A stretch of DNA of 64,000 bases from Oceaniovalibus sp. ACAM 378 (GTDB lineage Bacteria; Pseudomonadota; Alphaproteobacteria; Rhodobacterales; Rhodobacteraceae), in the NCBI RefSeq assembly GCF_008085915.1, contig NZ_VSJK01000007.1, positions 62,001 through 126,000 on the forward strand, written 5' to 3'. The translations under genes were made by a program, and so were the position numbers. Below, one piece after another: positions 13,300 to 14,100 of this stretch; the first letter of the stretch is position 1; each line of letters begins with the position of its first letter. The notes beneath the pieces were generated by a model. That model was given only the letters and a program-made list of their open reading frames with translations. It made no database searches and was not told the origin of the DNA.

Positions 13300-14100
13300 T
13301 CATCGCCAATCGCCGTAAATCGATTGCCACAGGGTAAGCGCAGCCACGGCGGCGGTGTCGGCGCGCAGGATCCGGGGGCCAAGACTGACCGCGCGGGTGA
13401 ATGGCAGATCCGACAGGCGGGCGCGCTCGGCCTCGGAAAAGCCACCCTCGGGGCCGATCAGGATGGCCCAGGGACCGGGGGTGTCTCCTCGGTCCTTTCG
13501 TCCCTCCTCGACCTTTCCGGCGTCATCGACCCTGACGGCGCTTTCGCCGCCATCCGCGAGGAGGGACGAAAGGACCGACGAGCGCGCCGCAAGCGATTCG
13601 TCACAGAACATCAGCAGGCGGTCGGCGGGCCAATCGGCCAGAACCCGGTCCAGCCGCTGCAGCTCTTCGACCGGAGGCACAAACGTTCCGCCACATTGCT
13701 CCGCCGCCTCGACCGCATGGGCCTGCAGCCGGTCCTGCCGCACCCGTTCCGCATTGGTGAATTGCGTCTGCACCGGACAGATCCGCGCCGCGCCCAGTTC
13801 CACCGCCTTTTCGACGATAAAATCCGTGCGCGCTTTTTTGAGCGGCGCGAACAGCAGCCAGACATCGGGCGGATCCTGCTGCGCCCGTGTGGATTCAACC
13901 ACCCGCAGCACGCCGCGCCGTTTACCGGCCAGTTCCACCTCGGCCCGCCATTCGCCGCTCTGCCCGTTGAACACCCGCAGTTCCGCCCCCACAGACAGCC
14001 GCATCACCCCGAACAGGTAATGCGCCTGCGCTTGCGACAGCGGCACGGATTGCGCCGGCGCAAGTGGGTGGTCTAGGAACAGACGGACGATCGAAGCCAT
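13300..14100 (-). CDS. rsmE: 16S rRNA (uracil1498-N3)-methyltransferase with a palindrome-encoded insert
   Basis: RsmE methylates U1498 of 16S rRNA using SAM. The 266-residue product has the N-terminal PUA-like domain (LSQAQAHYLFGVMRL) and the SPOUT knot motifs LIGPEGGFSEAE and LGPRILRADTA. The usual length is about 240-245. The excess maps to residues 175-204, encoded by a 90-bp element with 22-bp perfect inverted arms (13489-13578). The element is a multiple of three with no stop in this frame, and it lies between the first domain and the SAM-binding knot. The gene starts at ATG 14100, divergent from ubiA with an 11-bp gap. Confidence 0.93.
   Translation of the reverse strand: MASIVRLFLDHPLAPAQSVPLSQAQAHYLFGVMRLSVGAELRVFNGQSGEWRAEVELAGKRRGVLRVVESTRAQQDPPDVWLLFAPLKKARTDFIVEKAVELGAARICPVQTQFTNAERVRQDRLQAHAVEAAEQCGGTFVPPVEELQRLDRVLADWPADRLLMFCDESLAARSSVLSSLLADGGESAVRVDDAGKVEEGRKDRGDTPGPWAILIGPEGGFSEAERARLSDLPFTRAVSLGPRILRADTAAVAALTLWQSIYGDWR
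13489..13578. repeat. 90-bp palindromic element inserted in rsmE
   Basis: Left arm 13489-13510 and right arm 13557-13578 are perfect 22-bp inverted repeats; the left arm begins TCGGTCCTTTCGTCC. The 46-bp centre contains a smaller hairpin (CGTCA at 13521-13525, TGACG at 13533-13537) and the palindrome GGCGCTTTCGCC. The element is in frame with rsmE and adds about 30 residues rich in Ser, Glu and Asp. It resembles in logic the Rickettsia palindromic elements that insert in genes, but no sequence relation is claimed. I saw no second copy in this window. Confidence 0.85.

Follow-up and report, generated by a model that had tools for sequence, protein, structure and literature searches.

The window, by which we mean the whole 64-kb stretch of DNA analysed, carries on its minus strand an rsmE gene whose product combines the Methyltrans_RNA (PF04452) and PUA_4 (PF20260) domains of Pfam. 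The gene contains a palindrome already described in a first-pass annotation, and its arms are indeed as given there: 22 nt of perfect inverted complementarity (13489-13510 and 13557-13578) around 46 nt. With their flanks the arms extend to 26 nt (13485-13510 and 13557-13582), 25 of which are complementary (96%). A single open reading frame spans the whole, in agreement with the annotated in-frame position. The features of the locus are:

13300..14100, minus strand: rsmE, the gene that hosts the element; single ORF, 266 aa (PF04452, 7.5e-39; PF20260, 3.7e-11)
13485..13582, no strand: entire inverted-repeat element, 26-nt arms with 46 nt inside (inverted-repeat comparison and fold z-scores)
13556..13583, minus strand: REP-like unit 1 (covariance model R2, 34.4 bits, E 5.4e-4; absent from the R2 training set)
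13484..13511, plus strand: REP-like unit 2, inverted (R2, 17.4 bits, E 0.59, weak alone)
13511..13556, no strand: spacer, 46 nt, similar to an aroA stretch of relatives

The palindrome stands out from its surroundings. With exact arms of at least 14 nt and a spacer of at most 120 nt, the window holds one other inverted repeat, with arms of 14, and a 20-nt arm pattern searched with up to three mismatches matches the window twice (at the two arms), against zero matches in 100 dinucleotide shuffles. Its predicted folding reaches z-scores of -7.4 and -8.4 on the two strands, none of 200 shuffles being as good on either. For the hairpin that the first-pass annotation nested in the spacer, the predicted folds of the two strands disagree. 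Rfam gave nothing near gathering score in the rsmE region.

We identified RsmE orthologues in 139 of 147 genomes, and compared the loop that runs from a CDE-like motif to LIGPEGG in 109 orthologue loci and the window; eight of the 109, where the pattern found no loop, were dropped, leaving 102 rows including the window. The loop is 47 aa long in the window, against a median of 22 and a next longest of 37. Absence of the insert from orthologues had been proposed as a check at first pass, and the full insert is missing from all 101 orthologue loops read, same-genus ones such as those of G002 and G003 included. The estimate of about 30 added residues has to be lowered: the net gain is about 75 nt, or about 25 residues, which is less than the element's own length of about 98 nt. 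The named relatives in this comparison belong to Roseovarius, Sulfitobacter, Palleronia, Allgaiera and Pseudooceanicola, which we take to be members of the Rhodobacteraceae group, and the host is assigned to that family on their account. In an AlphaFold2 model of RsmE built from 18 aligned sequences (mean pLDDT 87, pTM 0.82), successive ten-residue blocks over positions 171-210 score 61, 50, 59 and 60, against mostly more than 90 in the core. In this predicted structure, by which the first-pass alternative of an ordinary loop of ancient origin was assessed, the insert has low confidence, and it is most likely a flexible loop.

Concerning further copies, the expectation of the first-pass annotation holds for degenerate relatives and fails for exact ones: no exact second copy of the 90-98-mer was found in the host genome (G000). 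Matches to the arm with up to three mismatches are in no numerical excess there (18, against 17 in a backwards control), and those with two or three mismatches include palindromes with the same ends (L004, L006, L008, L009, L013) and a half copy (L005). The pattern GCTCNTCG...CGANGAGC occurs six times in the host genome against once in the control. The corresponding counts are 23 and 11 in G067, 19 and 0 in G252, and 4 and 0 in G002; there is no clear excess in G005 (6 against 9) and G056 (13 against 12), and G003 has no match at all.

A covariance model of the whole element (R1) was built from 16 elements, six of them host-genome copies including that of rsmE. It matches the window at 13482-13585 (C99:75482-75585) with E 8.6e-9, the element being one of its training sequences. 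At E ≤ 0.01 it places at least 15 distinct loci in the host genome, the six training members and nine new ones, a lower bound obtained by scoring 150 of 5423 first-look candidates. Over 147 genomes, and at the same threshold, R1 finds a match in 14, with a patchy spread: 13 of 90 genomes of the same family (host genome included) against one of 57 outside it, all lower bounds from 34 candidates scored per genome. For the matches outside the host genome 60 regions were fetched; one match in G051 was left out, and two in G073 fall in one region. The single match of G068 was rejected, since the place reads as an ABC ATPase. L200, rejected for reading as an ABC-ATPase P-loop, was dropped ahead of the stop-codon count given below, in which L201 and L202 were retained.

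A profile of the arm by sequence only proved too weak and was replaced by R2, a covariance model describing the unit. In the aligned arms the unit measures 28-30 nt and consists of GCTCNTC, a stem of 5-6 bp, a loop of about 4 nt, the returning stem, and TCNTCGC. Over 48 arms, 91.3% of the cells of this hairpin are paired against 67.5 ± 2.1 in shuffles, with 51 double-sided changes against 16.2, and sliding the alignment by one column abolishes the pairing. Pairing from arm to arm is much less supported, the variable N of CTCNTC being paired in 9 of 16 elements and failing to pair in the other 7. Because the hairpin covaries and the pairing between arms is much less supported, the conserved entity is the small hairpin unit, which among these elements usually comes as an inverted pair, in the manner of REP dimers.

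At gathering score, Rfam matched no element at 20 loci, its only hits being RNase P RNA and SRP RNA nearby. Against plasmids and phages the rsmE element gave short partial matches only. A plasmid search with three family members yielded, among the matches examined, a single intergenic relative, which lies between zntB and a cytochrome c gene on the megaplasmid of Ruegeria pomeroyi DSS-3 (L289:1501-1571); L104 found no relative among plasmids.

None of the 48 training arms of the unit model comes from rsmE, mutL, dnaE or amidase genes. When it is applied to the 109 rsmE loci (100, amounting to 281 kb, then nine), its five best matches all fall in the RsmE loop: two units in L019 (G067), and one each in L245 (G077), L036 (G025) and L140 (Pseudooceanicola nitratireducens). 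With E-values from 1.4e-4 to 0.039, they score 24-38 bits; no other match exceeds 16.7 bits. In these four genomes the rsmE codon at which unit 1 of the window lies, after the CDE/ADE motif, is likewise occupied, by one unit or by two. Their first units share its slot and phase and are read as RSSPLAGLLA, RSSVLTDGLA, GSSALTGGLA and GSSALSGVVA, against RSSVLSSLLA in the window. Unit 2, a nearly perfect complement of unit 1, reads VEEGRKDRGD in the rsmE frame. The sole other dimer among the loops read is that of G067, a genome of a different genus, whose loop contains a palindrome of different sequence. The rsmE feature is more aptly viewed as a pair of inverted REP-like units plus a spacer. The first-pass annotation's idea of a mobile-type palindromic element that tolerates insertion into genes gains support from the lack of the full insert in the orthologue loops and from the element's relatives in the genome, some of them genic and in frame, its mobility being putative.

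These matches also bear on the alternative that we are looking at an ordinary variable loop whose palindrome arose by chance or serves as a hairpin of RsmE's own mRNA. Loop length does vary in the relatives, from 19 to 37 aa, but neither strand is equalled in folding by any of the 200 shuffles, and a model trained without rsmE units picks out precisely the RsmE loop in 281 kb, and unit 1 in the window. We thus regard this alternative as highly improbable.

In L245, L036 and L140 the single unit sits in a loop of ordinary length, and the same-genus loci L022, L033, L219 and L240 have no unit at E ≤ 5 by R2. Single units at this codon elsewhere suggest an older or recurrent occupation of the site, and not one simple recent insertion of 90 bp. 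The element may not be a plain insertion, since the gain in rsmE is smaller than the element and a unit also occurs in three genomes whose loop is no longer than usual. A rapid tree of the 102 RsmE rows, computed after taking out the loop, requires five changes for the six rows with GCTCNTC at the same offset, with 43 of 99 inner branches unresolved; one of the six, L037, shares the offset without R2 support and is not counted as a carrier. The site would therefore have been hit repeatedly or its units often lost, and the weak branch support allows both.

The host genome holds two more copies in frame within genes, in mutL and in an amidase gene, making three of the 15 host-genome loci and thus a minority. 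In all three genes the first unit is read in the same phase. The mutL element occupies, in frame, the linker between PF01119 and PF08676, and is common to the host genome and its congener G002, where the arms are nearly perfect (27/29). In the host the mutL units are weak by R2 (E 1.3 and 1.6) and the dimer is found by R1 at 5.9e-7; the mutL loci of G001, G003 and G005 have no unit match at E ≤ 5 by R2. The same linker carries single units in two other genera, both found by R2:

L207:2774-2800: single mutL-linker unit (G036, E 0.022)
L214:2765-2794: single mutL-linker unit (G067, E 0.011)

The amidase element is whole in G000. In G002 it amounts to a single unit (E 0.003), and G069 has an amidase palindrome with one unit that is supported by R2 (E 0.04) and a second whose support is weak (E 1.7); of the 14 amidase loci all except L302 were read. 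In dnaE, in-frame copies occur in G069 and G174, where the stretch measures 58 and 53 aa against 28-32 in the five other loci read, seven of the 12 loci being unread by the motif; the DnaE proteins of 11 of 12 genomes align with that of G069 in two pieces around the insert stretch.

Such shared sites could go back to a single insertion in some distant ancestor from which several genera descend, later lost in most lineages or cut to one unit. Codon and frame at rsmE are identical in five genomes, the amidase site is common to G000, G002 (with its one unit) and G069, and the dnaE site to G069 and G174. Many losses would be needed, however, given the five changes over six rows of the RsmE tree, itself counted with 43 of 99 inner branches unresolved and with L037 lacking R2 support. 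We hold a single ancient event to be rather unlikely.

The spacer offers a further lead. Positions 13517-13562 of the window, which comprise 40 nt of spacer and 6 of arm, match the aroA gene of G243 with 87% identity (E 7e-8 in the search of this one genome). From the search of 394 genomes 29 loci were inspected, of which 7 are aroA, at the same place. The resemblance to the relatives' aroA codons includes one extra and one missing base. The aroA of the host is less similar to the stretch, being weakly alike. The E-values of this search are too favourable: 110 of the 394 genomes reach E ≤ 0.01, about four being expected to do so. Because these E-values are inflated, the likeness is only suggestive, and capture of an aroA fragment as the rsmE spacer is to be seen as a lead from sequence and not a result.

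This lead would fit a formation in place, whereby rsmE held one unit and strand switching during replication added an inverted second unit together with a spacer of about 46 nt from elsewhere. L036, L245 and L140, with a single unit in the same slot and a loop of native length, look like the starting state, and the gains have the corresponding sizes: about 30 nt in G067, or one unit, and about 75 nt in the window, or one unit plus 46 nt. The rsmE arms are also alike in 25 of 29 positions, against 20-24 in 9 of the 12 host-genome copies compared, and the spacer resembles the aroA of relatives. Perfect-armed dimers, however, also exist outside coding-like ORFs (L143, L152), the gain in dnaE approximates a whole element, the host's own aroA is weakly similar to the spacer, and a single-unit ancestor is not seen, the four same-genus loci having no unit at the threshold given above. 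Overall we find this course of events rather unlikely. A broader version, in which the dimers of the family are generally made in place, a coding unit being doubled backwards by strand switching, with a piece of aroA caught in rsmE, so that palindromes grow within proteins at fixed codons in several genera, is more speculative still, and we consider it unlikely. If true, doubling in place would explain how REPs that have no transposase form dimers. At one rsmE codon we may have the natural intermediates, namely no unit, one unit, two units, and two units plus a spacer, which makes the spread and pairing of transposase-less REPs testable by comparison.

The family frequently sits at gene ends. 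In the host genome 8 of 15 loci have a stop codon between -20 and 30 nt from the element (shifted controls: 7 of 120), and in relatives 40 of 59 do (shifted controls: 16 of 459), the stop codons being those of coding-like ORFs as judged by GC3 and not by annotation. Stops on both sides, as between convergent genes, occur at three host-genome loci and 10 loci of relatives, against none in either set of controls.

Some individual placements are worth recording. The cbiC gene of the host genome terminates inside an element, which contributes its last residues (L116:1501-1565), and a near-perfect homodimer lies between the end of a phenylalanyl-tRNA synthetase beta gene and a small SRP RNA gene (L113:1501-1569, 1609-1705). 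Two genomes have elements close to their RNase P RNA gene. In the host genome the amidase gene with its element is upstream of that gene (L109:1501-1564 and 1759-2157), and in G069 a perfect-armed dimer lies five bases behind it (L143:1151-1532 and 1538-1609). The latter element is the same as L293:2606-2673, where it is the dimer that follows the amidase gene, and the amidase gene of G069 holds a further palindrome.

Taken together, we consider it very likely that the rsmE feature consists of two inverted copies of a short, REP-like palindromic repeat of Rhodobacteraceae, which occupy a variable RsmE loop and keep its reading frame. In the stretch examined, the ends of the rsmE element show no direct repeats of at least 4 nt; a target-site duplication of that size, as the first pass proposed to look for and as would mark a MITE, was thus not seen there. 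The RAYT transposase (PF01797) is absent from the 10 genomes searched, whereas the same search gives matches in 5 of 14 well-known genomes. We infer that the elements are mobile, with copies that would reach new sites rarely and independently of any dedicated transposase found, either by means of a borrowed transposase or through replication with strand switching at the hairpins. Insertions that break a reading frame would be lost, and those that enter a flexible linker with a stop-free frame would persist as nearly neutral additions to the protein. Being in frame, without stops and placed in a loop, the rsmE dimer would be tolerated; it would be translated as about 35 residues of flexible loop, for a net gain of about 25, with no gain of RsmE function implied.

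Palindromes within coding frames are already known, as the Rickettsia palindromic elements (RPE) and as intragenic REPs (Di Nocera et al., 2013, PMC3733652). RPE are palindromes of 105-146 bp inserted in frame in conserved genes whose proteins tolerate them (Ogata et al., 2000, 2002, as related in PMC2229807 and PMC3733652). The present family resembles them in that three conserved and mutually unrelated genes of G000 (rsmE, mutL, amidase) carry copies in frame. By the published descriptions, it differs in its units of 28-30 nt arranged in dimers and in its minority of coding copies (3/15). The intergenic CIR repeats of Caulobacter, described as about 110 bp long with GANTC sites (PMC2229807), are likewise alpha-proteobacterial repeats with two hairpin arms, as far as that description goes; the consensus of our arm alignment (A3) is devoid of GANTC.

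With GTAG REPs the family shares a mostly extragenic distribution as inverted dimers of small hairpins. Unlike GTAG/RAYT systems, it goes with no PF01797 in the 10 genomes searched, copies above control being present in G000, G002, G067 and G252 at least, and its units end in GCTCNTC and TCNTCGC, not in GTAG.

The closest parallel is with CGTC REPs which, in the main text of their description, are short hairpin units prevalent in alpha-proteobacteria, mostly inverted dimers, that adjoin the 3' ends of genes, sit between convergent genes and apparently have no dedicated transposase (Di Nocera et al., 2013, PMC3733652). According to the same text, some lie inside genes of DNA synthesis and repair, such as the DnaE of R. 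conorii, and two Xanthomonas recB genes have insertions at the same site. The Rhodobacteraceae family agrees with that account in its inverted dimers, its location at gene 3' ends and the lack of a PF01797 transposase in the genomes searched. The units differ. CGTC units have an unpaired CGTC, TGTC or CCTC end and a stem of 8-9 bp that almost invariably starts with two A-T pairs (PMC3733652). Ours read GCTCNTC in 67 elements placed by R1 (leaving out the weak or one-armed L114, L115, L117, L120, L121, L159, L161 and L200-L202), positions 3-6 being G in 59, C in 64, T in 64 and C in 62 of the 67; A3 is no independent test of these ends, its arms having been picked by a pattern starting [CG]CTC. 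Their stems are of 5-6 bp, with A-T as the first two pairs in 6 of 48 and 5 of 48 arms. CGTC families have been reported in all orders of the alpha division, so a Rhodobacterales relative may be among them, possibly in the supplements of PMC3733652; the main text names neither Rhodobacter, Ruegeria, Silicibacter, Paracoccus, Roseobacter nor Jannaschia, and does not name mutL. In the open-access literature we found no description of a GCTCNTC unit family. As far as the published descriptions go, this family fits neither the GTAG nor the CGTC definition, and thus adds for Rhodobacteraceae a REP-like family outside both, while rsmE, mutL and the amidase gene join the genes with coding palindromes, among which dnaE was already known from R. 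conorii.
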